DNA of 64,000 nucleotides, taken from NCBI GenBank assembly GCA_025917655.1, contig CP084611.1:5189105-5253104 (forward strand), given 5' to 3'. Positions 16,233-64,000 of the stretch are shown in pieces. The translations under genes were made by a program, and so were the position numbers. The notes below the pieces were generated by a model. That model was not told where the DNA came from. It saw only the letters and a list, made by a program, of their open reading frames with translations, and ran no database searches. Each line of letters opens with the position of its first letter. Within the stretch, counting starts at the first letter, position 1. Source of the stretch: Chlorella sorokiniana (Eukaryota > Chlorophyta > Trebouxiophyceae > Chlorellales > Chlorellaceae).

Positions 16233-18168
16233 TCACCTCTTGCGGGTCAGCAGCGGCACGTCGTCGTCGCTGTCGCTGCCTGCGGGCGGCCATGTGCAGC
16301 ACATCATGCAAAGTGTGAGCAGGTCAGGGGGCAAATATCAGGGGTGCAGTCATGGCGGCCGAGTGCGGCGCGGCTGCAATCCCCTCAGACAAACTACCAG
16401 AAGAGCTGCCTTGCGCACAGCAGGCAGCACGGCAGAAGCGGCACAGGGAACAGCACGAGCGCCATCCACAGCATTTTGAGGTAAACGGCCATTGCATTCT
16501 GTGCCTTTGCAGCCAATCGCACCCGACAGGCCGCCGTCTTCAAAAGCGACGTCGCGCTTCGTGGGTGGCTTCTTCTTGGCTGCAGGCGCCGCCTTCCGGG
16601 CTGCGGGCGCCGCCTTCTTGGCTGGCGCGGCCTTCTTGGCGCTTTTGAAGTCGTCTGCGTCCTCTTCGCTATCTGCGGCGGAAGCAAACAACAGCAACAA
16701 CCAACGTAAGGAAATAACCCAAATGGAGCATGTTATTAGTGCACAGCGGATCTCGCAGTGGCAGGCAACTGCAACCAAACCCGGCCATATGTGCGCAGGG
16801 ACAGCGGCTACTCTGCAACTCTCACCCTCTGCAGCCCGCTTTCGCTTTGCTGTCGTGCCGCTGCCCGTCGCCTTCTTCCTGGCCGGCGCCTTTGCGGGCG
16901 AGGGGCGCCCTTGCGCTTCTGCACAGGCAGCACGCACGGCGGCGCTGCCGCATCAGTGCCCAACCATGCCGGCTGGATGGCAGCCGGGTTCGCAGTCTGC
17001 CATGCGTCACTCACAAGGCCGAGCCCTCACCAATCCCAGGTCCCGGTGAGGCGCCTTGCACCCAACACCCCCACTGCGTCCCCGCCACCCGCGGAGCTGG
17101 GTGCTGCTGCGCGGCGGCGGGGTGATGCAGCAGCACCCGTCGCGGCAGCAGCAGCATCTCCAGCTGCACCCCCACCTGCGCCTGCTCCAGCGCCCACGCT
17201 TCTGCCTCCTCACGCGGAAGCAGCCCATGCTGCGCACACCACCGCGTCGCCATCTCGCTGCCGGGTCGCTGCTCCTTCAAGCTCGTGTAAAAGCGGCGCA
17301 GGGGGTCCACCTATTAGCATGGGTGGGGGGGAGGAGGGGGCGAGTTACTGCGGGGTGCAGGCGCGTCCAGTCAAAGGGACGGGGAGCACGCTGCACCACT
17401 GGGCCGCCTGACGCTGCTCTGCATGCTTGATCGGGGCAGCTCGATCAGGGACACATGGGCCAGAACAGCAGGGCCAGCAGCGCACGGCAGCTCACGAGCT
17501 GCCCCATGCAGCACACCTCTGCAGGCGTGTCCCGAGTCTGGCCCGGCAAGTCGTAGACTTTCTTCTCACGCTTCACCGTTGCCCCTGTGCTGCTGCCCTG
17601 TGATGCCCCTTCCGCCTTCTTCTTCGCCGCGGGCTTGTCTGCTGCCTTGGCCGCTGCAGCCTTGCCGTCTGCCTTGCCAGGCGCGGCTGCCTTCTTCACC
17701 CCCGCTGCTGGCTTCTTCTTGCCGTCTGTTGCCGGCTCCTGCAAGGTTGAGGATGGGGTACAGACAAGGAGGTGGTCGACAAACTGTTTGCCCAGCGCTG
17801 CTAACTTTAGCATGTGGCGTGCTTGGCTGCACAACTGGCAGGCCTTTCCGTACCTCTTTTACACCTTTTGCTGCAGTCCCAGCCTTTTTGGTTGACAGGG
17901 GCTCTGCAGAAGCAGCGGCGGTGACAGGCGAGCGGGTGAGCGGCAACAGCGGCGGGAGGCAGCAACGTGCAAGGCGGGTGGCGGCAGCCCACCTTGCTTC
18001 AAGGTTTTACGGGCGGCTAGAGGTGCGTCGTCGTCGCTGCTGCTGCCGCCCCCTGCTCAAGAACGGAGGGGCCGCCGCTTTCTGCTCTGCTGCTGGAGGT
18101 GCCGGCGCTGCCTGTTGCCCCTTCCGTGAGGCCAGAGGGACGTCATCGTCGCTGCTGTCGCCCGACAT
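16233..18168 (-). CDS. Lys/Ala-rich protein with SDDDxPL repeats and YDLPGQ domain
   Basis: Start at ATG 18168: MSGDSSDDDVPLASRKG. A second copy of the motif, SSSDDDAPLAARK, follows near 18020, and a third, GSDSDDDVPLLTRKR, forms the C-terminus just before TGA at 16233-16235 (last exon 16233-16279). Between them lie Lys/Ala-rich tracts resembling histone H1 tails (KKAAPAKKAAPAARKAAPAA near 16600). The core has KREKKVYDLPGQTRDTPAE (17520-17580) spliced to DPLRRFYTSLKEQRPGSEMA (about 17270-17310). I recall a similar core motif in uncharacterised plant nuclear proteins, which suggests a conserved domain, but this is from memory. The charge pattern suggests a nuclear, nucleic-acid-associated protein. 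One frame slip lies in the first exon, near 18050. Function unknown. Confidence 0.65.
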
Positions 18169-18475: not shown

Positions 18476-21400
18476 ATGAAGGCCCTGGCGCTCTTGCTGG
18501 GCGCCTGGTGCATCCTTGAATGCTCGCAGAATGTCTTGAGCCAAACAACAGCGCCATTCCCGCGCGTGTTTTTGCGGACGAGAACCATTGACACAGCTGA
18601 GGAGGCACTGAAGTGAGTCGGGCCTACCAGCGCACTTGCACGGTGCCTCAATATCCTGAGCATGGCGTGCACTGTAGCCGGCCCTGTCCGGTTGGCCAAC
18701 CCTTCCGCCGCGTTGGCGGCGCCGCCCAGCTTCCGCTGCCAGCCGCCTTGCTGCCAACTGGCGGCGCGGTTGTTGCAACCCCTTTCGCAAGGCCCCGCAA
18801 CCAGGCAAACCCCACCAAGCCCCGCGTTTGACTTGGCCGCGCTGTAACCTCGCACCTGCAGGCAGCAGCGGCGCCGTCTCCTGGGCGAGGCGGCCGCGTC
18901 ACCGCCCTCCCACCCCCACCACACTGCCAGCGATCAATGGGGCGGCCTGCGCGGCACGCACCAGTGGCTGCTCACGCACGCGCCAGGGCTTGCAGCGCAG
19001 CAACAGGCCGAGCTGGTGGCGGCGGTAGAGGCGGCGGGGGCCATGTGGCGCATTACCTGCCAGACCACACACTGCTAGTGGTGGGCCCAGCACGCGCAGC
19101 GGTTGCCTTGGAGCAGCACCCCACGCGCTCTGGCTGGTGAGTCGGGGGCGCAACGGCGGTGTGTGTGTGTGGGGGGGCAAGAGAGGGGGCTGTGGTGCAG
19201 GAAGGGTAGGAATGCCACCTGCAGGATGACGCTGCGGCTGTTGGCTGCCATGTGCCGTGGCTGTAATGCCGCTGTACCAGCGTGGCTGCTTGCCTCAGCC
19301 GGGCCGGTGCTAGAAGCGCGTGACGTTCCTTGGCTTATTGCTGAAGGATAGCTTTTGGGGCGTGTGCCGTTCCCCCTCTTTGTTGCTTGCAGGGCCCTCT
19401 CGACGAGCAGGACAAGCTCGCCCCCGAGTGGGCCGCCCTGCTGCAGCAGCTGCGCCAGCTGCGGCCGCAGATAGAGCGCGCTGCAGCGCTGGCCGCCGCC
19501 GCCAACGGCTCGGCAGCGGCCGCCGCGTCGGCGCGGGCCGTGCAGGACGCGCTGCCGTCTGCAGCTGAGTGGGACGCGGAGCGTGGGCAGCTGCTGGTGG
19601 GTGCTGTGGTCACCTTTCCAGGCCTGGCCGGCCCCGCATCCCGTCGGATCCCTGCGGCGTCGACGCAGCAGGCGCAGCGTGCACGGCGCATCATGCTGGA
19701 GCGGCGGCGCCGCGACGCGGGCGCCGCCGCCGCCGCCGACTGGCGGCCGCACCTGCGTTCCCTGGGCGGTGCCCGGGTCAGGCGTGCTGCAGCGGACTCT
19801 CTTCTGGTCCTGGCGCCAGCGGAGCGGCTGCAGCAGGTGCTGAGCTGGCTGGCGCAGCGTCCCGCCACGCACTGGGTGGCACCCGCGCCCAAGATGCAGC
19901 TGAACAACATTCGGGCTAGCACCATCACGCAGGTGGGTCCTCGCCGCTCCCCTTTTCTCCTGTGCTCGGCTGTTCCTCTGCTTGATTTGTGTGTTGCTGA
20001 GGCTGGCGGCATGATGCCTTTGCAGTGGCCTTTGCCATGCCATGCCATGCCATGCCATCCCTTGCTGGGGCCCTCCTAGTCACAGCGCAACTCCCGTCTG
20101 CTGCCGCCCTCCAGCTGCCGCCGCTGCCTCGATAATCCCCTCTGCCCCCTGTGTGCCTCTGCTGCAGTCGGGACGCGCCACCGCGGCAGGAAGCAGCGGC
20201 ATAGACCCTGCTTTCCACCCTGTTTGGGCCGCCGGCATCACGGGGCAGGGCCAGGTTGTGGGCTGCGGGGACAGCGGCGTAGGTGAGGTGTCGGGGGCTA
20301 CCCAGCCGCTGCCTCTCTCAAGCCCCAAGTCAAATACATTTATTATAGCACACCCCCACCCCCACCCACCCACCCACCAGCACATTGAGCCACCCGGACC
20401 ATCACGCCTGAACCCTCATCGTGTGTTTCCTTGCCGCAGACCGCTTCCACTGCTTCTTCTCAGACTCCGCCTTCGCTTCGGCCGACGCGTGGCAGGCGGC
20501 GGTGCGCATCCAGGACGGCGTGCGCACCTTTGACTCCCCGGACCACCGCAAGATCCGGTGTGTGTGCATGCACGCATGTTGCCGTGCTGCTTGTGGGCGG
20601 CGTAAGAAACTGTGTGTCAGCAGGGGTGGTGGTGTAGGGTGTCTGGGTGCCTTTTGTGTATGTGTGCGTGTGGTGTGGTGGTGATGGGGGGGCCCTTAGA
20701 CTTGCGGTCGCTGCCTGCAAGTCTTCGAAGCAGCCACACATCTTGCAGGGCCGTGCGGTCACTCTGGCTATTCCCCAGCCTGCAGCCGCCGCCGCCGCCC
20801 TTGCACGACACGTCGCGTGTTGTGCCTGTCACCCACCGCCCTGTACACGCGGCCCCGCGTGTTCAACCCCGCCCCCAGGTACCTGCGCGCCTTTGGCGAC
20901 AGCGAGGACTCCAACGGCCACGGCACCCACGTGGTGGGCACGCTGGTGGGCCTGCCCGAGGGGACCACCCTGGAGGCGGAAGCCCCGACGGATATGTGGG
21001 CATGGCACCTGACGCCAAGGTCGCCTTCATTGGTGCGCCGCTGCTGCGTGCCTGCTCTGCAACCACCCTACGCTCGCTGGCGGCGCTGGGGCCGTGCCTG
21101 GGTCACTGCCCAGTGGGTGGCAGGGGCAGAGCCGCTGGCGTCCGGTGCTTTGAGGAGGCGCTGGTCCATGTATTAGGCCGCAGTTTTACAGCAGACGCCA
21201 AGGCGGCTGCTGCCTGGGTGCCCAGTGCAGCTCCCGATCCCCGGCGCCCCTCCCCCTTGTCCCACCTTGCCTGTATTGACGCAGACCTGGCCGACTCCTC
21301 CTCCGACAAAATCTTCACCCCCTCCGACCTCATTGGCGGCTACTTTGGTTACACCACCGCCGTGGGGGCCTACGTGCACTCGGGTGGGTGATTGTTTGAG

Positions 21401-24400
21401 TTAGTGCAGTTCTGTGTCAAGGGGAAATTGGTGGCAGCGCGCCCCGGGGACCGGCTCCAGTCTCACAATCGGCGCCTGGCGACCTCTGCACACCCCTCTC
21501 CGCCCTTCACCCACCCCCGGCCTGCCCACAACCCCTGTTCGCCGCACGGTACCGCAGATTCCTGGGGCACCAACGACATCCGGTACGACTACCTGGCGCA
21601 GCAGGTGGACCGCTACTCTTGGGAAATCCCGAATTCCTGCCCGTCTTCCCCGCCGGCAACGAGGGCCAGCTGATGACGAGCGGGCAGCGGCTGAGCGGTG
21701 CGAGCGCCTTTGCTGGAGGCTCTTCAGCGACAGTGCCGCTGCCCCCTTACCCGGCATGATGCTCCGCCGCTTGTTGATGCCGCCCCTGCCCCTGTTGGTG
21801 GCTCGCGGTGCTGGCTGCTGCCCGAACGCTGAGGCCTGCGGCCCCGCAATGTCCCCCGCCTCTCCTCGCAGGTGAGCTGACCGTGACCAGCCCTGCCAAC
21901 TCGAAGAACTGCCTGTCGGTGGGCGCCACCCAGGTGGGAGCAACACAAAAACACAAAGGGATGGGAGGTGCAGGATCTCTGGTGGTTTTTGACTCGGTTG
22001 GTTCTGCTGCTTCAGCTTGCCTCACCCCCCTCCTTTCCACCGCACCTACCCACGGATCCGCCACCCCCACCCTGCCCCCAACCATCCACCCATTCCACCG
22101 CACCCGCACATGGATCCACCACCCCCACCCCCACCCTGCCCGCCAACCACCCACCCACGGAACCCCACTCATCACACCTCCACCCATGTCCCTGGCCCAC
22201 AGACCGCCGGAGAGCGCATGGAAACGACTGCCGTGCGGTATGTGGTGTGGGACGCCACCGTGGCGGAGGGCCAGTACAGCTTCGACTTCAGGTGAGTGGG
22301 TGGGTGGAGGTGGGGTCATCAGGTGCAGATGCGGAATGATCACAGAAGTAAACCAAAGCAGAGGCGGGCGGGGATGGCTGGCTGCGTGGCGGTGAACATG
22401 CAGCGTTGCCTGCACGCTTGGCGCTGCACGCTTGCAACAAGGTTCCCACCAGGCTTCCCGGCATTGTGCCCCCCTCCCCTCCCCTCCTATCAGAGTCATG
22501 CAGGCCAACTTCGGCACCTCCGTGGCGACCCTGGGCTCGCAGCAGCTGCCGCTGGCGGTCGCGTCCCCATCGACGGCTGCTCGCCGCTGCAGAACACCGC
22601 CAGCCTGGCGGGCGCCGTGGTGCTGATCCAGCGCGGTGCGCTGAGGGGGCTGCTGCTGCCGAGCTCCATGCGGTTGCCATGCATGCTTGGCTGAGCCGGC
22701 AGTGTTTGTGGTCCATTGCTGCCATCCATCCCTTGGACAGAAAGATTTGCGCACGGCATCAACCCCCTCCCCCTACCCCACCACACCCACACCCACCACC
22801 CACCACCACCACCCCACCACCCCACCGCCCAAACCCACGTCGGACCCCTCCCCACACCCACACCCGCCCGCCCTGCCCCACACGTACATTCGCAGGTACC
22901 TGCTACTTCTCCGAGAAGGCGCTGGCGGCTCAGGACGCGGGCGCCGCCGCCGTGCTGCTCTTCGACAACGTGCTCGGGCGTACTTTGTGGCGGTGGATGA
23001 AACTGGTGGGTGGTTGAGCGGTGGTTGATGTGGAGTGCAAGTGGCATAGTATGTGCGTGGGGGTGTGAGTGGTCTGGGTGCTGTCGGGCACCCACCCCTG
23101 CCATCCTGGCCCAGTGGCGTGGCCAGCGCGTTGCTGCAACCTCCTTCTTGAGCGCGCCAGCCATGGCCTACCCCTCCTTGTACTTCAACAACAACAGCAG
23201 CTGACCAGCCACTGCACTGCCCACCGTTCCTCTGCCTCCCCTCCCCCTCCCCGTCCTGAGCAGCCACCCCCATATCCATCCCCGTCATGGCTGTCACGCG
23301 TCGCCTGGGGCAGCAGCTGACGTCCACGCTGGGCGCGGGCAAGGCGCTGACGATCGCCTTTGCAGCCTCCTCCCCCACCAACTCTTTTGAAAACCTGGCC
23401 ACCTACTCGTCGCAGGGTGAGTGCAGGCGGTGTGGGGGTGGTGTGTGGGGGTGGGGGTGGGGACGGGCAGGGACGGGGCCTTTGCTGCCTGCCTGCTTGC
23501 GGCAGGCGCCCGCAGCAACGGTTGCGGGAGGATGGGCAGGCAGAGCACAGTTTTGTGAAGGACCCATCGCTGTCGTCGTTCTCCCCTCCCTCGCGACAGG
23601 CCCCACAGTCGACTTCCGCGTCAAGCCCGACATCGTCGCCCCGGCACCGTCACCAGCGCACGGGTCGGCGCCGGCTCGGCAAACGACTGCGGCCTGACTA
23701 CCATGGCGGTGAGGGCTGCACCCGATGTTCTGGGTCCTCGCCTCTGCAGCAGCCTTGCCGCGCTGCAGCAGGGCTTGCAGAGGGCAGAGGGGAGGGGCAC
23801 GCGTCTGGAGCGCGCCCTAAGGGCTATGGCTGCCGAGGATAGCTGTGATTCCAACTCTTGCTCGAAACTCGGTACCGCCCCCCCCGCCCCACCCCACCCC
23901 AACAGGGCACCTCCATGGCCACCCCCGTCACCGCTGGGTCTGCGCTGCTGGTGCGGCAGTACTTCACAGACGGCTTCTACCCCTCAGGTGGGCGCTGCGG
24001 CGGCCTCCTGTGGCCTCTTTCCTCAACTTCCTGTGTCCTCCTTCACGGGTCTCGCGTGGTGGTGTGCTGCTATGATGCTTGTCAGTGCCGGCGCTCAAGT
24101 CGCTGGAGAGTTGGCTGCTGCGCTGCCTTGCCAGTCCCCGATGCTGCAACCCCGTCCCTGCATCCCTCTTGCCCGCCCGCCCTGCCACAGGCGTCGCCAA
24201 CCCAGCGGACGCCTTCACCCCCTCGGGCGCGCTGCTCAAGGCGGTGCTGCTGGGAGGGGCGGCCAGCATTGCCGGGTTTGAGGCGGACACCGGCCTTCCC
24301 ATCGACCCGCCGCCGTCCTTCCGCCAGGGGTTCGGCCGTGTCCAGCTGGGTGTGCTGTGCTGCGCTGTGCCACGCTGGGCTGCGCCCCTCTGCTCTGCTC

Positions 24401-27400
24401 TTTCGTGACCTGCTGGAGTGCCGCCACAGGCCCATTTTGATGCTCTGCGGTTGTTTTTTGCGGGCGGTGCAGCGTCTGCTTCACTCCGCAGTGCGCACAC
24501 CTGCCCGCTGCTTCCTGCCTGCTGCTCATCGCTCGGCCTTGCCGTGACCCCGCCACTGCTTTGCGTGTCCCATGCAGCCAACTCGCTCTACCTGGCTGAC
24601 TCGCCTGGCAGCCGGCCCCTGCAAGTCGTCGATGCGGTGCCCATCTCTCAGGGTAAGCTGCTGGGGGGTGGCTGCTGGGCTCCCCGCACCCGTCCTGCCG
24701 GGTGGCGGCTCGTCCCGCCCGCCGGCTCCCTCGGTTGCCACGGATGCAGAGCGCGTGCCGCAGCATGCCGCCCTGCCCCTTCACGTCGTCACGACTCTGC
24801 GCCGGCTTGTGCTGCAGGCGAGTCACACTCGTACTGCATCCGTGCCGGCGGCGGCCCCTTGGCCATCACTCTGGTCTGGGCGGACTACCCCGCCAGCCCT
24901 GCGGGTGCGCTGCCGCCGCTCTCTGCTGCCCAACACGCATGCCAGCATGCGAGCGGCAAGCCTGCCCTCACCTGCTATGCCCTCACGCCTGCTCCTAACT
25001 GCATCGGCGGTCGGCGGGCCCTCGCGTATGCCCTGGTTGCATGCCTTTCACCTGCTTCTGCTGCACTTGAATAACCAGCCACTCCCGACTTTGCGTGCAG
25101 CTGAGCGCGCCTTGGTGCACGATCTAGACCTGACCGTGCGGGCGGCGGGCCTGAACGGCATCCCGCTGCTGGGCAACGGAGGATCGGTCACCGACCCCTC
25201 CACACCAGACAGGTGTGTGTTTGTGTGTGTGTGTCTGGAGGGGGCCTGGACGCTGAGGCACAGGGACTGTTGTGGAGGGCAGCCGCTGCGCGCCGGCCGC
25301 CCTTGGGGCGCGTGCCCCTCAGTCTTTTTTGCCCGTCAGTGCTGCACGCATCCCCGGGGGCCCTGTGTCAACAGCGCCTTACCTTGATTTTTTTTTTCGA
25401 TCGTCTACTTCTGTTCCCATCATTTCAACCTTCTGTTTCAATCATCTCCTTCTGTTTCGATCGTCTCCTCCTTCTGCAGGGAGAACAACGTGGAGCAGGT
25501 GGAGCTGGATGCCGTGCCCGCCGGCCTGGTGTCCATCACAGTGGAGGGCTTCAACGTGCCAGATGCCGCAGGCTCCCCCTCCTACGCACTCGTCGTCACC
25601 GGCGACTTCAACGGCACGCTCACCAAGCCGGGAGCGGGCGGCGCGGTACCGCAGTGCACCATCCTTGTGGCGGGTGAGCGCTGCGGCGGTTGGGCAGGAT
25701 GGGTGGGGTCGGGGCTCGCGCGGCGGGGGCCACAGCGGCAGATGGGAGAGGCGAGTGTGTAGGAGTGTTCCTGGGCTGAGGCTGCGTGGCGTCCTGCTGG
25801 TCCCAACCCCCGAAGCCCCCCCTTGCGTCGCAGCCATCACGTCTGGGCCCTCGGGGTTACCGCCGACAGCCCCGTGCGCTTTGAGTTCTCGACGGAATCG
25901 GGCTCCTCCTCAGGTGGGCCGCACAACTGCCGAATCCGAAATGGTGGCCACAGCTGCTTTGGCGGGGCCTGGCTGCATCGGGCTGGGGTGTGAGGGGTTG
26001 ACCCTCCGACATACCCTCCAGTCACAAGTGGTTTGGTCCAGGCTTGTACTGTCCCCCGTTACCTGGGGCATGTGGAGAGAATGGGCAGCAGCAGCAGCCA
26101 GTGTGCCCCTTGTCAATCAGCAGCCGCAGCTAACGCTCAGAAACCATCTACGCCCCTGCGCCCCGACAGCCACTGCTTATGTCTGTCCCTTCCGCCCCCA
26201 CCCTGCAGGCGTGAACTTCCAGTGCCGCATGGCCGATGGCAGCGGCAACGTCACCTCAGACGCCCAGCACGACTGGCGGGTGAGCTGAGCGGGAATGCAA
26301 ACCGTGCCGGCTTGCTGCCCCAGGGGCGCCAGCAGCGCGCCCCGCCCATACCTTGCTTTCACACTGCTTCTTCCACCAGCACCTTGACCTTGCAGTGTTC
26401 CTTCCCATCCCCCAACCGGCGCTGCCTCCCCTTCTGCCCCCGCCGCCGCAGGACTGCACCTCCCCAGCCCTCTACGCCTCGCTGCCCGACGGCGCCTACC
26501 AGTTTGCCGTGCGCGCAGACGTGAGCGACGCCCGGCTGCCTGGCCGCCTGTGAATGCGTGCCACTCTCGATGGGATGGCCATGTGGTGCAACACTGCCTC
26601 CCCCACGCTCGACGATCTTCGCCATGCTCCTTTGTCACCGTTGCCGCCACCGCTTCCCTTGCCTTCCCCTCGCGACTGCTCTTGCTGCCGCAGGGCGAGG
26701 AGATTGCCAGCAGCCGCAACTTCGTCCTGGACACCACCCCTCCCCAGCTGGCGTTCCTGGCCGATTCCCTGGCCTCCGGTACCGCCACCCCCGCCGCCAC
26801 CGCCAACATCTCGTGGGAGGGCAGCGACGCGACGGGCGTGGCCTATACCTGCACCCTGCAGGGCAGCGGTACCGCACCGCTGCAGCCGCCCGTGTACAGC
26901 GGCACCACCAAGCTGGAGATGCAGCAGGTGGGCGGGGGGGCAGCGGGGCACAGCAGCCCTCGCTAGTGTCGGTACGGCGCTTCTTGTGGCTTTGCTGCCC
27001 GCGTCCCGGTGCTCCCCATTCATCTGCCTGCACAGGCCTGATCGGCTTCCCGGCTAGACATTCTCACTGTGCCGCACTTGCCTCCCCCCTTCCCCACCCC
27101 GCAGCTGACCCTGGGCGAGCCTTTCAACTGCACCAGCCCCCAGCTGCTCCACTGGCTGCTCCCCGCCTCCTGGTCCCTGTCCGTCGTGGCGGCGGATCCA
27201 GCAGGCAACCAGGCGCCGCCGCAGGCCACTACCTGGGACGTCGTGTTTGATGACGGCGCCGGCCGCTACACGCGTTTCCTCAGGCAAGGCGGGGCAGTGT
27301 CAAGTTGTGTAGTTTGGTTTCCACACGGCATATGTGGGTGTCCGGGTGTTGGGGTGATGGGGTGATGTTCTGCGGCTCGCCCGCAGCCAGCCCGGGCAAA

Positions 27401-30400
27401 GCATGCCTGGGAGGGCCCTCTTGGCGGGGCAGGCCTGCTCATGTCCGCTGCACGCGCGGCGCCTGCCCCAATTCCCTCCCTGCCCCAACCCCCTCCCCTG
27501 CCCTTCCCCACCTGCAGCGGCCCCTTTGGCCTGCAGCCCAAGGCCAACCTCACCTTCTCCTTTGCCGATCTAGAGGCCTCGGGGCAGGCGGCCCAGGCCT
27601 TCACGCAGCACGAGTGCTGGCTGGAGGCGCTGCCAGGTAGGCGGGCAGGTGTGCACGGTGTGGCGGCATCTGTTTGGCCAAAAGGAGGGGGCAGCATGCA
27701 CTCCCAAGCACACAGGGGAAGTCTGGGTTTGGCAGGACTTGAGGTAACCGGGAGACGATATCATGGGGTGATCAGGGCAGGCAGCGCAGGCTGGCTGATG
27801 CCCCCTTTCCCCCTCCTGTTTGCTTGCAGGGGACAGCACACCGGCATATGCCGCCTGCAGCAGCCCATTCTCCTTGCCTGATGACGTACAGGTCAGCCGC
27901 CGCTGTGCCGCTGCGCTGGCTGCACCTTTTGGCACTGGCTGTGCCCTTCCAGCAGCTGCAATGCCATCCTCACCGGCCGTGGAGGCTGGCGGAGCAGCAC
28001 CAAGGGTTGCGGGCCTCCTGTTCACCTCACTTCGCCCCTACACTTGACTGCAGGACGGCGCGTACCGCTTCCACGCCCGCATCACCGGCAGCAGCGGCGC
28101 TGGCAGCACCGAGGCTGTGGCCCTGTTCGAGCTGGACTCGCAGCCTCCCACAGTTTCCATCACACGTGAGGGTGCTGTCCTGCCTTCTGACGCGGGGTTC
28201 TGAAGTCAGTGCAGCGGCGCCCTGCAGTGCTGCCCGGGTTGGGTTCTCATCAAGCTCTGACGAACGGCCTGCGATGTGGCCCCGCCGCCCCTGCAGAGGC
28301 CCCCGAGTCCCTGCTGAGTGCCAACGCCACCTCAGCCTCCTTCAACTCGTCCGAGGAGGGCACCACCTTCTACTGCGGGTGAGATCCGCCTGCTGCCCCG
28401 CCTTGCTGCTTGCATGGGGCCCACTCGCAGCGCACACACACCTCCTGGCAGCACACCGCGCGGTGCACCCCGTGCCCGCAGCTAGCTCAGTCCACGCGAC
28501 CCCACGCTTCTGCCTCTGCTGTGCAGGCTGGCGCGGGTGGATGGCGGCCCCGCACCCATCGCCCCCAACGCCTCGGCCTACGCGCCCTGCACCTCCCCGC
28601 GGCCATTGCCAATCTGACGGACGGCAACTATGCCTTTGGGGGTGAGTGGGTGGGTTTGGGGGAATTTGATGGAAGTGGGAATGGGGAGGCCAAGTGCGGC
28701 AGGCCTCCTGGCAGCAAAGGGGCGCAAGCATGCTGCACGCTGTGGCGTCGCCTCGCCCAGCCTTGCATGACCCCCGCCTCCCGGACCTGTCCCTGGACAC
28801 CCGCCCATGCGTGCTGATTGCAGTGTACGGCGTCGATGCGGTTGGCAACCAGGGCAGTCCTGTCACTGCCTCTTTCCTGGTGGACAACACTCCCCCTTCC
28901 TTCGACTCCCTCAGGCAAGCACCGGCGGTGCAAGCAGCAGCCCTCCGCCCAGCTGCTGGCCTGGCCGCTCGTTGCGAGGCCCCGAGCTGTTGGCAGTGTT
29001 GTGCCTGACCTCCCTCCAATGCCGTGGTTTTTGTCAAATGCCCGGCGCCCGGCTGCACCCCCACCCCCTTCCCCTCCTTCCGCTGCTCTCTGCAGCGTCC
29101 CTGAGGCCGCTTCTCGCCCGAAATTACCGCCACCTTCTCCGCTTCAGATTCGGGGTGGGTGGGAGTGAGAGTGATAGGGGACTTGTGTCAGCAGTGCCCA
29201 CGCTGCATCAGCAGTTGTGCTGCCCTGCACACCCATGCTGTGCCGGTCTCCTTGGCCGGCCCCTGCTGGCCTTCGGCGCAAGTGCCGTCTCTCGGCGCTG
29301 ACACTTCTCTTTTCCCCTACACCCCCACCACGCAGTTCTGGGGTGAGCAACGTCACGTGTCGCTTCCGAGCCCTCTCCCTCGTTGACGGCTCCTCCGCGG
29401 CAGGCAGCAGCAACAGCAGCGGCGGCGGCGAGGAGGCCGACTGGGAGCTGTGCACCAGCCCCCGCACCTACTCGGGCCTGAAGGTGAACCCGCCCTGCCC
29501 CGCCCGCCCGCCCGCGCCCCCGGTTGAGCTGTTGTTGGCTGTGCCGTCCAGCAGTGTGGTCCAAGATGCACTGCTGGGCCTGAATATGCGGCAGGGAGGG
29601 GAGCCAGGGAGCGGCGCACTGCGTCGTGAGCACATCAGGAGAGTTCCTAGCCATTTCAAGTGGAGCCTGACCCCCATCCTCCCTTCTTCCGTACCGCAGG
29701 AAGGGCGGTACGGGCTCACGCTGCGTGCCTCCGACCGGGAGGCCTCACCACGCAGGTGGGCGTGCTCTGGATTGCCCCGGCTGCTATACGCGGCTCTCTG
29801 CCTTGTTCCCTTGCTGCAGCCGTGCAGCTGGGCGGCCTCACAATGAAAGCGGCCCTCAGCCTGCTGCTGCCCTCTCAGCTTCCTGGCCTGCTGCCCTTCC
29901 AATCCACCCACCCACTCCAACTCTCCTTGCCTCCCTCCATTGTCCTTGCCTCTGATTTCACCTCCCCCTGTGCCCTACAGACCGATGAGCTGTCTGTGTT
30001 TGTGGACTTCACGCCCCCGCGTCTCCACGGCGGGCCTGCCGCCGCTGGGCCAGGCGCAGCCCAGCAGGGTGTCGTTCAACCTGGCCGAGGCGTCGCAGCT
30101 GCCGACCGGCTCCTATTCTGGCATCGCCACCTACCAGACACTTGTAGAGGTGCGGTGGAATGGCGGGTGGGATGGGGCGGTTTGTAGGGCGTGGTCAGCG
30201 TCTGAGATGGCCCGTCTCTGCTCACCATGATGGACATTTGGACTTTTCTGCTCATTTCCCGCAGAATTTGCCGGATGAAGCCGCTTACAGCCAGCTGCAG
30301 CTGGCGGCGCAGGGCGGCGACATCCCCAGCGCCGTCGCCGCCACCGGCGCCGGCGGTCGCCGCCGCCTGCTGGCGCAAGGCGAGACGGTGCTGCCCGCTT

Positions 30401-32101
30401 CGGCGGTGGGGTCCTGGACAAACTGCTCCGCCGCTTGCACCTACGATGGGCTGGCCAGCGGCTTCTACTCGCTGCAAGTGCGGGCGGTGGACGAGGCAGG
30501 GAACGTGGGCAACACGACAGACCCCTATCCGTTTGAGGTGCGCTGCCTGCTGGGGCCTGCTTAGTCGCAGCTTGTGGGGCTGGCTGCTGGGCTTGCCCCT
30601 GGGCTGTGGCAGCTTGACGTCGGCGCATTTGCAGGTGCAAAGCATGGGGGACGCGGGTGACGCCCGACTGCGGAGCGGCGGGGGCATTGGGCCAGTTTGT
30701 TGGCGCCCTCCCTGGCTGCTGCGATGTCGCCTCGCTGCCCCCACAACACCCCCTCCCGCCCGCCCCAGCGGTTGCACCTCTTCCCCTCCCCCTCTGCCCT
30801 CACCCTCTCCCCTTTCACCTTTCCCCGCCTCCTGCTTAACCCCGCCCGCTCCCCCACTTCCATCCGCAGGTGAACGCATCCATCGGCTCCACCCCCTTCC
30901 CCACTTGGGCCATCATCGCGCGTCTGTGGGCGGCGCCCTCGTGTTGGTGGCCCTGGCCATCCTCACCTGGCGCTGCTGCTGCCGGGCGGCGGCGCGGCGG
31001 CGCCCCGTCCGCGCCTCACACAGCCCCAGTGAGCTTTGCTTGCAGCGCTGCGCCCCAATGGCCGCAGACGATGCTTGCATCTTTGCATGCGATGCCGCGG
31101 CTGCGATGGCAGTGCTTCGTGCTGGCCCCCGTCAGCCCTTTCTTCGGCAGCCCGATGCGCATTCGTCCACACTCAGGCGCCCGCTCGCTGCCCTCCCACC
31201 TCCCATGGCTCCCTGCAGGCCCCAGCAGCCAGTACACGTATTCCCCCGGCAGCACGGCGCGCCCAACCCCCAGCTACGGCTATCCCACAGGTGGGCGGCC
31301 GCCCGTGTCCGGCCTGCGCCAGCTCTTTTCCAGGAGGGGGCCAGCGGGCGGCAGCGGGGAGGGAGCCTCGCCCCCGGCTCTGCATCTCACGCGTATGCCC
31401 TGCCTCCTCCCTCCCTGTATCCCCAAACCGGAGCGCAGGTGCCTACACCGCCCCACCTCGGCTGGCGGCGCGGGCGCCTGGGGCTACGGCGCCGCAAACG
31501 GCCACCACGCCAACGGGTGGGGAATACCTTGCCGCCGCACCGTTTTCGCCTGTACCGCACAGGCTGTTTGCATGTTTTGATCGGCACATGGCGCCGCCGG
31601 CCAGCCCTCCAGGCGCGCTGTTGCGTTACTCTCTCCGTCAACTTTTTTCTTGCGTGGCCTCCCATGTGCAGCTATGCCAACGGCCGCGCCAACGGCTACT
31701 CAAACGGCCATGCCGGCAACGGCTATGCCAACGGGCACAGCTTCAGCACGCCTGCGCCCGCCGCCGCCCCGTCTTCACCCCGGCATGGACCCTGTGGAGG
31801 CGCAGCGGCTGGCGCTGGCTGCTGCCTCAGCACGCCGCCAGGCGCACGGCGGCCCCCACCCGCAGCTGTCGGCGGCGGAGGAGGAGCGCCAGCTGCGCCT
31901 CGCCATCGACGCCCGCTGCAGGAGCAGCGGGCGGCGTCGCGGCGACAGGCGGAGGAGGCGCAGCTGCGGGCGGCGATAGACGCCTCCTTGAGGTGGGGCC
32001 GCGTTGCTGCATGCCGTGCTCTGCTGCTTGCCGGGGCATGCGTGTGGTGCAAGCGCCGGGCGGCTAGGCCCTGCTGCTGCCTGCGTGGTGTGTGCCTGTA
32101 G
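18476..32101 (+). CDS. Giant membrane-anchored subtilase (S8) with PA insert, Ig-like repeats and UIM-like tail
   Basis: Exon 1 (18476-18611) begins MKALALLLGAWCILECSQNV, a clear signal peptide. A long propeptide region follows (to about 20200). The S8 triad is complete: Asp in VVGCGDSGV (20270-20272), His in NGHGTHVVG (20919-20921), Ser in GTSMATPVTAG (23912-23914); the oxyanion Asn lies in PAGNEG (21650). A protease-associated domain is inserted at about 22500-23000 (PIDGCSPLQNTASLAGAVVL). After the S8 fold come tandem Ig-like modules with CTSP..Y..L, VRA.D..GN and D.TPP motifs (25830-30540), then a transmembrane helix ALVLVALAILTW (30936-30971) and a cytosolic tail rich in Asn/Gly/Tyr with two UIM-like helices. 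About 30 or more exons. Frame slips at about 19045, 21627, 23645, 30925 and 31912. The last exon is uncertain; I took the stop at 32099-32101. Likely a cell-surface or wall-remodelling protease. Confidence 0.85.
20031..20060 (+). repeat. CCATG microsatellite in a subtilase intron
   Basis: About five tandem copies of the pentamer CCATG within an intron of the subtilase gene. Confidence 0.8.
22035..22155 (+). repeat. Two-copy 58-bp tandem repeat in a subtilase intron
   Basis: Two imperfect copies, starting TTCCACCGCACC at 22035 and 22093, each running through GGATCC and a CCACCCCCACCC block. It lies inside the intron between the exons ending 21931 and starting about 22203. It is strongly C-rich, with G-quadruplex potential on the other strand. 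Confidence 0.75.
25388..25478 (+). repeat. Degenerate pyrimidine repeat before a splice acceptor
   Basis: After a T run, blocks of roughly TTTCGATCGTCTCCTTCTG recur in degenerate form up to the CTGCAG acceptor of the exon encoding NNVEQVELDAV. The tract is probably an expanded polypyrimidine region of this intron. Confidence 0.6.
31870..31994 (+). other. Two ubiquitin-interacting-motif-like helices in the subtilase tail
   Basis: The segment encodes AAEEERQLRLAIDA (31876-31917) and AEEAQLRAAIDASL (31956-31991 region). Both fit the UIM pattern of an acidic start, L..A(I), then S/A-L. A one-base slip near 31912 separates the two reading frames; otherwise they form one continuous helical stretch. 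UIMs bind ubiquitin on cytosolic proteins, and this segment lies on the cytosolic side of the transmembrane helix at about 30936-30971. Confidence 0.55.
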
Positions 32102-32796
32102 GCGAGCTGTAAGCCAGCTGGCTTACCCACCGGGTGCCGCCCGATGCTGAGCAGCACCGCCTGTCCCTGCTCCTCCTACCGAAACATGCAGGGAGCAGCA
32201 GTCGCAGCGACGCGGCAGCAGCGTTAAGTCTGAGAGCTGGAAGCTCTGAGGCTTCACAGGCTGTCATGACTCAGCTCAAAGGTAGCCCAGCCTGACTCAG
32301 TGACTCGTGACCCGGAGCGAGAGCAGCAGCAGCAAGTTGAGAGCAAGCTGGTGTGTGGTGGTCGGGTCTGCAATCCCTGCCCATCTCACAGCTGGAATGC
32401 GGCGGAAAGTGGCATACGCAGTGCCCTCCCGGCCCGCTCGTTGTACTACTATACCCCTTAACCCCCTCTAACCTATTATCAATTCCTTGCCAGTTGAACA
32501 TGCATGACGCCAGCTACTGTGCAACACGTGATGCAACACCCCCAGGCTGATTGTACGGCAGAGGGCAGCGCACCGCATTCAGCGCAAGAGGGCTGGCTGC
32601 TTGGCTGTTTGCTCCCAGTTCACCCTGGCAAGCTGCATCGAAGGTGTGTGTGTGTTGCATGCGGTTAGCAAGCCGACCAACAAACATGGCTTGCGTGGCA
32701 GGCACTGGAGGAGAGAAAAGCAGTACAGCAGTACACAGTGTCGAGAGGATTAAGAGTACACAGCCAAGGTGGCGCAGGAGTGCAGCTGGGCGGGGT
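32102..32796. other. Convergent intergenic region
   Basis: Nearly 700 bases between the subtilase end (+) and the Gln-rich gene end (-). Apart from the TGTAA at 32108 I see no gene or repeat. The stretch around 32440-32530 is lower in GC. Confidence 0.5.
32108..32112 (+). terminator. TGTAA poly(A) signal candidate for the subtilase gene
   Basis: A TGTAA lies seven bases beyond the stop I accepted. The 3' UTR would be unusually short, so either this is the signal or the true last exon extends through a further splice. Confidence 0.3.
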
Positions 32797-34815
32797 TCAG
32801 CGCCGCCCGTCTTGCACCGCTGTATGCTGCAGCCCGCCGCCGTCGTTGCCGCCGCCGTGCAGCGCGGCGGCGGCCTGCCGCTGCCGCTCCAGCCACTCTT
32901 CCTGCTGGCGCTTCAGGCGGCGCAGGTGCAGCAGGCGCTCGGTCTCACTCATGGCGGCAAAGGGCGGCATCTCGGCGCCACCTGGCAGGCCCGTGCTGGC
33001 GCCGCCGCCGCCCAGATCGCCGATTGGCACAAGGGGCGACGAGGGCTGCCGAGCCATGCCCTCGCTGTACTGCTGCTGCTGCTGCTGCTGCTGCTGAGGG
33101 TGCACGGGGTGCGGGCTGCCAAGGCCTGGGGGCCAGTAGGGCGGCATCGGTGCCGCCGCCAAAGACAACCCACCAAGCTGCTGCTGCTGCTGCTGCTGCT
33201 GGGCGGCGGCGGCGGCCGCCTGCAGCGCCGCAGCTTGCTGGAGTCCCAGCGAGGCGCGGCGGCGAAGGGCCTCCCCGCTGCCAGTTCCAGCAGCGATGGC
33301 GAGCCGCGCTGCGCCGCTTCCGTGGCAAACGGCGTCGGCTGAGGGCGACCCTCGGAGCCGGCCGGGCGGGTGTGCCGCCGCTGCTAGGCCCGCGCGCGCG
33401 CGGCGGCAGCGCCAGACCCGCAGGCATCACACCGGCGGTGGCTCCAGCCTGCAGCGCCTCCAGCTGCTCCCGCACCTTGCGCATGCGAGCACGCAGCACA
33501 AACGTGCGCACTTCCTGGGGCTGCGCCGCCAGCTTTTCCTTCTGTTCCGCGGTCATACTGCTGTACGCGTGGGCCAGCAGCCACATGTCCTGCCTGCTGC
33601 CCGGCTCAGAAGGCATGGGCCCCGACAGCGGGCCACCCCCCGTCGCCGCCAGAGATAGCGTGCCCCCGACAGCGACGTGGGCAGCCCCCGAGGGGCTGCC
33701 CTGCAGCTGGGCGCTGCCCGCGGCAGGCAGCGCGTGCGGGGGCGCGATCGGGCGCCAGGTGCCGGCAGCGCCACCGGTGGCTGCACAAAGGTCTGCTGCT
33801 GCTGCTGCTGCTGCTCTTGCGCCGCATGGGGTGCTGCATGTCCTGCTGCGCCTGCTCCTGCTGCTGCTGCTGCTGCTGCTGTAGCGCATCACGGCGGAAG
33901 GGCTGCTGCGGTGGCTGCAGTGCAGATGGCTGCAGGTGCTGCGGCAGAGTGGGGATCTTGAAGCTGCCCAGCGCGGCCGACAAGGCGCCAGAGAGCAGCT
34001 GACCCGAGGCAAGCAGCCCGCTGCCATCCAGCCGCGGCTGCAACAGCGCCGCCTGTGCAGCCACCGCCGCTTCCGTGCTGTCGCTGCGCGCTGGAGGGGC
34101 GCCCTCGCCAAGTGCCTGCTCCTGCGGCGGGCCGGGCCCCAGCTGCTGCGCCGGCTCCGCCCGATTCCCTCTGCCGCCTGCTGCCCCGCCGTGCCTCCGT
34201 CGGGCACTTCAAGCCGCTTGCGTACCTTCCTCGCCATTGGGGGAGGCATCAGGATCTGCAAAGGGAGGGCGGTGCAGGCACACCGCGTTCGTCTGCGGGA
34301 GGGGGCGCAAGCGCGGCATATGCCTGGCCACGGCCGCACAGGCCCTTGAGCAGGCACGCGGAATCACGGCTGGCTTCCCCTGCCCGGAGGTGCAACCCTG
34401 CCTTGCTTCCACCACACAGCTGAGGAAAGCGATTGGACCCACCCTGGGAGGCAGGAGGGCGGTTATTTCCTGCAGGCAGCGCCGCGCTTCGCCCATGAGC
34501 CGCTTCTCCTCGGGCGACGGCGGCTCACACCCGCCGCGCTGCCGCCGCAGCATGAGCAGCCCTGCAGCAAGGACAGGGGCGTTCAATTCAATTGTGCGAT
34601 CAAGTGATACTACTTGGACGGCGGGTTGGGCAGCAAGAACAAAGGGCTGGCTCCAAGAGCCATCGTTAATCCACCGTTGAGCTTAAACACGGTTGCAGCG
34701 TTCTGCTCAAGGAGGCAGAGAACTTGTTCTAAGCTGGGTGATGGCTCCTCTCCCTGGCTGGGTGCCGAGGGCGAGGCGGCACCGACGGGACCCGTTTGCC
34801 CGCGGGCTGCAGCCA
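32797..34815 (-). CDS. Gln-rich protein of unknown family, possibly nuclear
   Basis: Start at ATG 34815: MAAARGQTGPVGAASP, running into LEQVLCLLEQNAATVFKL and probably spliced near 34680 to an exon at about 34565 reading LLMLRRQRGGCEPPSPEEKR. The next exon begins ILMPPPMARKVRKRLEVPD (about 34250), a basic patch. The rest is one long exon interrupted by single-base slips: Pro/Gln-rich segments with four CAG-coded polyglutamine runs, then AEQKEKLAAQPQEVRTFVLR (about 33530) and a C-terminal coiled coil, SETERLLHLRRLKRQQEEW. It stops with TGA at 32797-32799. Gln-rich tracts plus basic and coiled-coil segments suggest a transcription or RNA-associated scaffold, but no family was recognised. Confidence 0.6.
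33070..33096 (-). repeat. (CAG)9 polyglutamine tract
   Basis: Nine uninterrupted CTG units on the + strand, coding nine glutamines on the gene strand, just before YSEGMARQPS. Confidence 0.9.
33178..33201 (-). repeat. (CAG)8 polyglutamine tract
   Basis: Eight uninterrupted CTG units on the + strand within the Gln-rich gene. Confidence 0.85.
33793..33815 (-). repeat. CAG-type tract
   Basis: Seven CTG units and two further bases on the + strand, within the Gln-rich gene. In the frame chosen by neighbouring sequence it encodes glutamine or, after a slip, serine. Confidence 0.8.
33858..33881 (-). repeat. (CAG)8 polyglutamine tract
   Basis: Eight CTG units on the + strand coding a glutamine run followed by EQAQQDMQHPM. 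Confidence 0.85.
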
Positions 34816-35105
34816 TGGTTTCAGCACCAGCGATCGAAACTTGAAGCTGGGCGCAATTGATCGTGGGCAGGCTCGGGCCCTCAGGCCCCAAATCGGAGCC
34901 GATGTACTGCCATCTATGTACGGCAGGCATTTTCGCGCATAGTGGGGCCATCCTTGCAGCGAACCGTGCAACTTGTACCGTTACTGATGCTGGATTTGTA
35001 GTGCTGCCGAGGTGCACAGAGCCGCTGTCACTGCGATCACCTTTTTCTTGGCGTGCGGCAGCTGACAGACAAATGGAGTAGATAGTAAAGCCGACAAAAG
35101 TCTTA
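34816..35105. promoter_or_regulatory. Divergent promoter of the Gln-rich and CPSF160 genes
   Basis: The 290-base gap between two divergent start codons is lower in GC than its flanks and must hold both promoters. No TATA box or other defined element was recognised. Confidence 0.5.
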
Positions 35106-38100
35106 ATGGCGCAGCAGCAGGCTGCGGTGTGCACACAGGTGGGGCCCGCCGCTGCAGGCGGCAGCGGCAGCGGCCTGTGCAGGCAGCGTCCGCCGCCCTG
35201 CATACCTGGCGCTGCGTGCAGCGATTAGTTAGCCATTGTCCGACCAGCCACCAAATTTCGCAGGTGCACCCGCCAACCGCTGTGACACATTGCAATGCTG
35301 CGTGGCTCACGCGGGGCCTTTGCGGCAGGGCGGTGCCGCCGACTTTCTCCCGACCTGGTGGTGGTGCGCTCCACCCAGCTGGAGCTGTACTGCATCTGCG
35401 GTACCAGCAGTGACACTGCTGACGGCACAGCCGATGGTCAGGGTTCAGCGGCTGCTGCGGCGGGGCCGCTGTCGCCGAGCTCCTGGCCAGCAGCCAGCTG
35501 TGGGGTGTGGTGGAGAGTGCGGCGGTGCTGCGCGGTCGCGCGCCAGGCCAGCGCGACGCGCTGCTGCTCACCTTCCGGTGAGGAAGGATCCTGGAGCGTG
35601 TGCCTGACCTTGCTTGTTGGTCCCAATCAAGCCCGGGCCCTGAATCAATTTTGATGGGCCGGGAAGTTCCCACGAGCTTCCCTGCTGACCAGACAGGCAG
35701 GCAGCCATTTCCCCATTTGTTCGACCGCTGTGCCTCCCTCTGCTCGCCCTCCCTCGCCGCAGTGACGCCAAGCTGTCGGTGCTGCACTGGGATGCTGCGC
35801 GGCACGAGCTCGCCCACTCCTCCCTGCACTACTTTGAGGGAGACGCCTCTCTGCGCCAGGGCCGCACCCTGTTCGCGCAGCCGCCGCTGGCGCTGGCGGG
35901 TGCGCTGCCTGGGGATGAACCCTGCTGCCCTGCAGACTGCCTGTTGGCTTGCCGTTTGTTGTCTGCCGGGTGCACGGACCCGCCGGGGTCCTTTCTTGTT
36001 TTGGAGCAGCTAGCCAGCGCGGGCAGCTGCTGGGAAGCTTTGCGGGCACCCACACCGTGTTCCGTCCACTCGTACCTGCTGGCATCCCTCCCCCTGTCCA
36101 ACCGCAGACCCGCTGGGCCGCTGCGCCGCCGTGCTGATGTACCGTCACCAGCTGGCCGTACTGCCAGCAGTCGACTCTGAGCTCCTGTCGCTCGGACTGG
36201 CAGCAACAGCGGAAGAGGATGAGGAAGCCGCGGCGGCCGCCGCGCTGGGCCTCGCCAGCCCCGCCCCAGTCGGTGCTGGCTCTGCAGCAGGAGTCGGCAC
36301 GGCGGGGGAGCCGCTGCGGCTGGTGCGTCAGGGCTGCCCTCGGCGGCGGCGGCGGTGGGAAACAGCTACGTCGACAACCTTGGGAAGGCTGGGATCAAGG
36401 AGGTGGGCCGTTTGGAGGCTCCCTGCTGCCCCGCGCTGCCGCCCTGCTGCCCCGCGCCTGCATGCACCGCCTTCTGTGCTCCTGCGCAACATCTGTCTGT
36501 CCGCCCCGTACCGCCGCAGGTGCGGGACGCCGTCTTCCTTCACGGCTACAACGAGCCGGTGCTGGCGCTGCTGCACGAGGCGGAGCCTACCTGGGCGGGC
36601 AACCTGAGGCAGAAGGTGCGGTTGGAACGTGTGTGTGTTTAGAGGGGGGGCGGTATGGGTGGGTGGTGGTGTGTGTGTGTGGGTGGTGTGTGTGTGTGTG
36701 TGTGGGTGGGTGGGGTGGGTGGGGGTGGGGTGGGGGTGGGGGTGTGTGTGTGTGGGGGGGGCAGGCGCGCTCGGGGACATGGAATGCGTTGCGTGATGGG
36801 GCCGGGCACCCGTGAAGGGAGGCCTGTGCGCGGTAGCAAGCAAGAGCGGCGTTGCCAGCAGGCCCTCTGCCGCCCCCTCCGCAGCATCTGAACCTCCGCC
36901 TGCCATGCCTTGCTGGCCTCGCCCCCCCACTTCCGCAGAAGGACACATGTGTGCTGACCTGCCTCTCCCTGAACCTTACCCGCAAGCACCACCCCAAGAT
37001 CTGGGGAGCGCAGGGGCTGCCCTCGGGTGAGCACTCTGTTTGACTTGACAAACCCCTGCGTGGGGGCAGCGGAGGCTCTGTCAATTGCGTGGGAACCGGC
37101 GTTCGATGACCTCCAACATGAACCGCTGGCTCGTTGCATCTCTGGGCTATGTACCGCAGATGCGTACCGCCTATCAGCGGTACCGTGTGGCGGCCTGCTG
37201 GTCCTGTGCCAGCACCTCGTGCTGCACTACCGCCAGGTGTGCTGACCAGCACTGTCCGCTGTGCGTGTGTTCTGCTGGGGTGAACAGCCTGCCTGTCCTG
37301 CACTGGTGTTGCAGCTTTGCAGCATTGTGCCAGGGCTGAGCACTGGCCTGCTCGCTGCAAGTTGCCGCGGTGGCGCCAGAGCTGCTGTTCTGTTGCAGTC
37401 GGTGCCTGTATCTGCCATCTTGCAGCCGTGGTGGCTCACCAGCTTCCTTGTCGGCCTGTTTCGGCCTGCAGGGCTGCCAGACGGGCGTGGTCCTGCACCC
37501 ATCCGCCCCCCCCCGCTGCGCCGCCGCCACCGCTGGCCTTCGACCCTCGGGCGATGGTTGAGGCGGGGGGCCGGGCCCGCGGCGGCAGCGTATGCTAAGC
37601 GCCATGCCATGGACGTGCATCCGGTGAGGACTGTGTGGCACTGACTTTGCAAGTTTTGCAAAGTCCAGCTCCGTAGCATGGTCAGCGCTGCATGGCAGTG
37701 GCAGTTGAGAAGCAGTGCGGACCTGTCCAGGCCTGCTGCCCTGCAGCACTGGTTGTTTGGCTCCCTCCGCCATGCATCACTGCCTGGGCTAGCAGCGAGG
37801 GCTTCAAAAGGGTCTCAGCTTCCTGTGCTGCCGAGGTGTTGTTTTGATAGTGCCCCTGGACCGTGCGCTGCGCTTTTAGTTGCGCCATATCGGGGCTGAG
37901 CCCGTCCAATCATTCTTGCATGCTGGCTCCTCTGCTTACAACCCCCTTCGACCTCTTCGCATCCACCTGCAGGACACGATGCCGGCTGCTGTGCAGTTTT
38001 GCGACACTAGCCATGCAGCGGAGCTGAGAGTCACCGCCGACGGTGCCTCGGTGTGCTGGCTGTCTGCAGACTCCGCACTGCTCTGCTTGCACAGCGGGCA

Positions 38101-63639: not shown

Positions 63640-64000
63640 TTTTAGGGTTTTAGGGTTTTTGGGGTTATTTAGGGTTTTTAGGGTTTTAGGGTTTAGGGTT
63701 TAGGGTTCAGGGTTTAGGGTTTAGGGTTTAGGGTTTAGGGTTTAGGGTTTAGGGTTTAGGGTTTAGGGTTTAGGGTTTAGGGTTTAGGGGGTTTAGGGTT
63801 TAGGGTTTAGGGTTTAGGTTTTAGGGTTTAGGGTTTAGGGTTTAGGGTTTAGGGTTTAGGGTTTAGGGTTTAGGGTTTAGGGTTTAGGGTTTAGGGTTTA
63901 GGGTTTAGGGTTTAGGGTTTAGGGTTTAGGGTTTAGGGTTTAGGGTTTAGGGTTTAGGGTTTAGGGTTTAGGGTTTAGGGTTTAGGGTTTAGGGTTTAGG
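63640..64000 (+). repeat. Telomere, TTTAGGG repeats
   Basis: From 63640 to the window end the sequence is tandem TTTAGGG, with the G-rich strand pointing right, as expected for a right chromosome end. The first 70 bases are degenerate, with TTTTAGGG, TTTTTGGGG, TTATTTAGGG, TTTTTAGGG and TTCAGGG variants. A GGGGG slip lies near 63787 and a TTTAGGTTTTAGGG variant near 63815. From there on the array is uniform to the edge, where it stops mid-unit. Confidence 0.97.

Follow-up and report, generated by a model that had tools for sequence, protein, structure and literature searches.

A probable type I membrane subtilase with a KP-43-like head and an Ig-like stalk in Chlorella sorokiniana

In the present study we analysed a stretch of 64,000 nucleotides of the Chlorella sorokiniana genome (the window; assembly GCA_025917655.1, contig CP084611.1, here C1, positions 5189105-5253104; the genome amounts to 38.8 Mb in 15 contigs). 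One gene on the plus strand of the window, about 31 kb from the chromosome end, probably codes for a membrane serine endopeptidase of type I, formed by a KP-43/TagA-type head with a PA domain, six Ig-like repeats, a transmembrane (TM) helix, a stop-transfer segment and a helical tail, its reading frame being interrupted by what we take to be assembly errors. The S8, PA, Ig-like and TM parts are firmly predicted. These domains are of known kinds; their combination is unusual and appears to be new, and it was not found in the literature searched, most subscription journals lying outside its coverage.

Results

The protease head

The protein starts with a putative signal peptide (MKALALLLGAWCILECSQNVLSQ) and a propeptide-like region (18476..20242), both read from the translation by eye, the region having a counterpart in a paralogue; a hydropathy peak at residue 3 is the third highest of the protein. 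An earlier reading of this DNA, made from the letters alone (the sequence-only reading), had named both elements, and inspection and hydropathy are what speaks for them. The following Peptidase S8 domain (20243..24198, model residues 344-809) is recognised by Pfam PF00082 with an E value of 1.1e-37 (130.4 bits, cut-off 21.8) and by its match to KP-43, and a PA domain lies within it (22546..23319, model residues 596-710; PF02225, E 4.1e-15, 56.1 bits, cut-off 23.9), between the oxyanion Asn and the catalytic Ser. Counting by hand from the exon starts places the catalytic Asp at 20270-20272, the His at 20919-20921, the oxyanion Asn at 21658-21660 and the Ser at 23912-23914, in the exon-borne motifs GDSGVD, NGHGTHV, FPAGNEG and GTSMATP, respectively. 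The complete Asp/His/Ser domain with a PA insert proposed earlier is thereby confirmed.

A KP-43-type C-terminal part, which runs to ...SYALVVTGDF and ends in a short linker (24193..25673), aligns to PDB 1wmd. The nearest solved structures are KP-43 (1wmd, E 4.7e-38, top among the 29 PDB sequences listed) and SubHal (E 1.1e-37), followed by the S8 peptidase 8jmw (2.4e-11) and C5a peptidases (from 1.4e-9); the 1wmd alignment runs to its residue 431 of 434. None of the seven NCBIfam families listed for the protease part exceeded its cut-off. By similarity alone, the head would belong to a KP-43-like branch of the S8 enzymes.

The Ig-like stalk and the membrane helix

Six tandem Ig-like repeats (R1-R6, 25834..30537) are predicted after the head by Pfam profiles and by leave-one-out profiles. 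At E values up to 1 Pfam gave 11 families for this region, four of them over the cut-off: Big_13 (E 5.2e-15, 56.2 bits, cut-off 27), Ig_J (E 7e-9), and Y_Y_Y and Big_3_3, the last two passing only through the summed score. The NCBIfam OmpL47-type domain NF047446 also passes (40.6 bits vs a cut-off of 40). Scored with a profile of the other five, the repeats R1-R6 reached 46.3, 15.0, 13.3, 36.3, 31.1 and 25.4 bits, in that order, whereas the best shuffle gave 10.2 bits and 0 of 1000 shuffles for each repeat attained its score. The stalk can be considered Ig-like at the level of sequence profiles, and the tandem repeats of the sequence-only reading hold up as six.

The TM helix (TWAIIA.SVGGALVLVALAILTW, 30903..30970, in exon 30870-31028), with one frame break inside, is the highest Kyte-Doolittle peak of the protein (2.56 over 19 residues), and the translation continues into a basic stop-transfer segment, RCCCRAAARRR (30971..31003); the single hydrophobic helix followed by CCCRAAARRR had been pointed out from the letters and was found again in this way. 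There are 16 N-glycosylation sequons before the helix and none after it, a count that 1 of 2000 shuffles gets to.

The gene model

The coding span, from ATG to TGA (18476..32249), was built by hand as a chain of 42 exons with 5,644 coding bases as deposited, and the predicted protein of the chained exons has about 1,886 amino acids. All frames were read, and donors and acceptors were picked by eye. The protease head and its linker occupy the exons 18476-18612, 18862-19136, 19393-19932, 20168-20282, 20440-20557, 20879-21032, 21285-21383, 21558-21697, 21872-21933, 22203-22291, 22494-22635, 22896-23005, 23115-23199, 23264-23416, 23600-23708, 23906-23987, 24191-24349, 24578-24652, 24818-24904, 25101-25212 and 25480-25673; the Ig-like repeats continue over 25834-25913, 26209-26279, 26452-26520, 26694-26927, 27105-27283, 27518-27636, 27830-27891, 28054-28165, 28297-28378, 28527-28641, 28824-28914, 29096-29154, 29336-29483, 29700-29755, 29981-30149 and 30265-30537; and the TM helix and the tail over 30870-31028, 31219-31290, 31439-31516, 31672-31992 and 32192-32249. 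The introns comprise 38 of the GT-AG and 3 of the GC-AG type, with AG at 41 of 41 acceptors. Two exon edges, which previously gave one CT donor and one GC acceptor, were shifted by one base each, and the GC donor at 23200 is our own choice because the exon edge there was shifted. As checked by hand, the frames agree at every exon junction but the one into exon 23115, for which we infer a break. GC content at third codon positions is 0.85 in the sampled protease and Ig stretches, vs 0.54 and 0.58 at second positions.

That the parts from head to tail belong to one gene is supported by this chain. The span 18476-32101 given in the sequence-only reading has to be extended at its end, the last exon lying beyond it with the stop codon at 32247-32249. 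The frame is not open in the deposited sequence, which has 17 measured breaks inside exons and one inferred. The model carries 19 X marks, namely the 17 measured breaks, the inferred one where exon 23115 begins, and a last mark that was removed by the GC donor.

The cytosolic tail

The predicted cytosolic tail (31004..32246, about 180 amino acids, exons 31219-31290 to 32192-32249) consists of a Tyr/Gly/Asn-rich low-complexity part followed by Ala/Glu/Arg/Gln helices, two of which had been described as UIM-like. The first (31878..31930) has a frame break at the Ser position, the residue there not being readable, and gave no Pfam UIM match with either an X or a guessed residue at the break; it is not a fair UIM. 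The second (EEAQLRAAIDASLRE, 31949..32203), which spans the last intron, fits the acidic-hydrophobic-Ala-Ser consensus. With Pfam UIM_2 it scored 15.0 bits as a 26-residue fragment and 11.7 bits in a 65-residue piece (cut-off 21), and with Pfam UIM 7.8 bits, below the cut-off of 21, while a Vps27 control reached 25.4 bits. GC content by codon position in the helix-bearing frames (0.91/0.55/0.89 for the first helix, and 0.84/0.52/0.92) resembles that of the rest of the gene and, for the first helix, speaks for the frame chosen; the values for the pooled tail (0.79/0.66/0.77) are less clear, some run edges being off frame.

The UIM likeness may well be a matter of chance. We lean towards the view, independent of the alternatives weighed below, that this is an ordinary helical or coiled tail segment rich in Ala, Glu and Gln. 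It is favoured by Pfam scores that stay at 7.8-15.0 bits where 21 would be needed, and by the lack of any Pfam match for the whole tail with E values up to 1. A profile search of the genome with PF02809 at E up to 10 likewise gave 12 sites without the tail helix among them, this search being six-frame and the last motif residues, in the next exon, thus outside its view. Moreover, a stretch of 61 bases on contig C4, 84% identical, lies within a long Ala/Glu/Gln-rich frame. On the other side, a strict UIM consensus pattern matched once in 127,996 six-frame residues, the match being the second helix itself, and one tail out of 20,000 shuffled ones contained it; a looser pattern matched 0.5% of shuffled tails and 5 other places in the frames of the window. 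Both patterns were written from the UIM consensus after the helix had been seen. The two helices also look by eye like a tandem near-repeat, which chance explains less readily. Ubiquitin binding by the second helix is a possibility outside what is established, and the ubiquitin/ESCRT role suggested earlier is reduced to a putative one resting on a single sub-threshold motif. A surface subtilase with ubiquitin-binding helices in its tail, whose head would be delivered, recycled or destroyed depending on local ubiquitin so that ESCRT sorting is coupled to the proteolysis of wall or matrix, is in our opinion unlikely.

A paralogue of the head

A paralogue of the protease head, matched exon by exon, is located on the minus strand of contig C7 at about 2629-2636 kb (locus C7:2627501-2637000), with an identity of 49-63% in five matches and of 48-67% in the matches not running through introns. 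Its downstream frames look proline-rich rather than Ig-like by eye; a discoidin domain considered for a C-terminal fragment was dropped as Pfam gave no match. Its distance to the end of C7 is about 12-18 kb, and the final 2 kb of that contig are free of telomere repeats. The idea that both paralogues occupy a subtelomeric place was rejected, since the contig of the window ends in telomere repeats and the C7 end does not.

Among the best candidates scored, every genome match of the Ig, TM and tail queries fell at this locus (15/15 and 5/5). A six-frame genome search with PF19077 found nothing, even at this locus, presumably because introns split the repeat; hence it gives no measure of how common such repeats are. 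Searches of prokaryote contigs (187-residue query) and viral contigs (598-residue query) returned pattern matches and no relative.

Discussion

We infer that the frame breaks are consensus errors of the assembly because an RRP5-like neighbouring gene and the paralogue, in which several breaks were seen by eye, show such breaks too. Fifteen of the 17 measured breaks are one base short, and 10 of the 17 lie at most 5 bases from a run of at least 4 equal bases, where 2.1 were expected and 0 of 4000 draws gave as many; the count is still 10 of 17 with flanks of 6 and 8 bases. The alternative is a pseudogene of a formerly functional membrane subtilase in which the breaks are real, and it is retained because their density is uneven across genes. 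A number of 17 breaks would fit a decayed gene, as would its place about 31 kb from the TTTAGGG array, and in the same assembly, by inspection, the coordinates of the HSP70 segments (57 matches) suggest about one break and those of the TCP-1 segments (55 matches) none. Decay explains poorly the prevalence of one-base losses and their clustering near homopolymers, seen at flanks of 5-8 bases though not at 3, and also the lack of in-frame stops in the exon stretches translated (some short pieces left out) and the retention of splice sites, catalytic residues and third-position GC. On balance, a pseudogene seems rather unlikely.

A further alternative is that the chain is wrong and joins two genes, one for a secreted KP-43-like protease that stops near 25673 and another for an Ig-TM protein. 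The paralogue, whose head is followed by an apparently different C-terminal region, is in line with this, and the junction of the parts was read from frames and splice sites only. Nevertheless, the intron 25674-25833 is of the GT-AG type and its phase matches, and a Met is missing from the coding frame of the first Ig-like exon, making two genes very unlikely. Several observations weigh against an intact single gene and should be set beside the above. A single transcript over 18476-32249 is a prediction from frames and splice sites. Two of the 17 breaks are not one base short, one falls within the TM helix, and a density of 17-18 breaks per 5.6 kb is unusual and might point to a recent pseudogene, as the nearly clean HSP70 and TCP-1 matches underline. 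The homopolymer test was not significant with the 3-base flank tried first (3 of 17 vs 1.3 expected, P 0.14), nor with runs of 3 at that flank (7 vs 5.0, P 0.21), and the flank was enlarged after this first outcome. Finally, a PDB search of the Ig-like region gave no match at E up to 0.1, and structure prediction, proposed along with the sequence-only reading, covered one exon only of this part (30265-30537), which folded alone gave a useless model (pLDDT 34.3).

If one gene indeed encodes the type I enzyme, the protease would be made as a zymogen and lose its propeptide along the secretory pathway, the Ig-like stalk would keep the head off the membrane at the cell surface or in a vesicle, the head might cut proteins of the wall, the matrix or the endosome/vacuole lumen, and the tail would govern sorting.

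Among known systems, furin, Kex2 and site-1 protease are type I membrane S8 enzymes with a sorted cytosolic tail; they belong to other S8 branches and are not known to carry a PA insert or an Ig-like stalk. The bacterial cell-envelope proteinases (C5a peptidase, lactocepin) have a stalk of modules and a surface wall anchor. They share S8 with PA with the protein described here, in agreement with the C5a peptidase matches in PDB, and differ in being bacterial and wall-anchored, the Ig-like region here having no PDB match at the threshold given above. KP-43 and SubHal are the closest to the head, the stretches 52-187 and 196-431 of the KP-43 chain being aligned; however, solved KP-43 (434 residues) is without PA insert, Ig repeats or TM helix. 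For function we drew on the literature (PMC8643629, PMC6313938, PMC9549277, PMC9381478), and the following comparisons are by description and not by sequence. According to PMC9549277, the head of Dictyostelium TagA/TagC is related to the C-terminal half of KP-43, and TagC belongs to a transmembrane protein of the ABC family. The Tag head is joined to an ABC transporter, where our protein has an Ig stalk and a single TM helix. The Chlamydomonas protein Cre03.g190250 resembles our protein in having S8 (298-792) and one TM helix near the C-terminus (1149-1171 of 1229), whereas in Table 1 of PMC6313938 it is filed as type II, with no signal listed and 58 residues after the helix. Sporangin/VLE1, the Chlamydomonas hatching subtilase, is listed in the same table as a type II protein whose S8 domain comes closest to PC7, a topology unlike the one predicted here. 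The part in wall lysis at autospore release put forward in the sequence-only reading is speculative.

If the gene is intact, it would supply a tethered protease as a candidate for remodelling the wall or the matrix, in addition to the enzymes listed for Chlamydomonas, which are secreted or type II; it would also be a clear test case for ubiquitin binding by a cargo tail that carries a UIM-like helix. That the two heads of this genome apparently continue into different C-terminal regions suggests the joining of a KP-43-type head to more than one kind of anchor.

Neighbouring features

The window ends at the contig end in a plant-type TTTAGGG telomere array (63641-64000, 50.9 copies). The RRP5-like gene with S1 domains lies on the minus strand at about 7000-13200, one fragment matching S1_RRP5 over the cut-off (E 7.7e-8) and another staying below it with 19.1 bits; an apparent one-base break near 11.6 kb was seen by eye in its three frames. 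A divergent gene on the minus strand (17000-18168; MSGDSSDDDVPLASRK..., YDLPGQTRDTP...) starts about 300 bases from the subtilase gene and is seemingly frame-broken by eye, one fragment having no Pfam match. Downstream, long Gln/Ala-rich open frames on the minus strand (32948-36009) may represent a convergent gene. Elsewhere in the genome, chlorophyll-binding genes gave 41 exon matches, and a CP26 exon is near-identical to chain S of PDB 8bd3, a Chlorella ohadii structure, over 111 residues.

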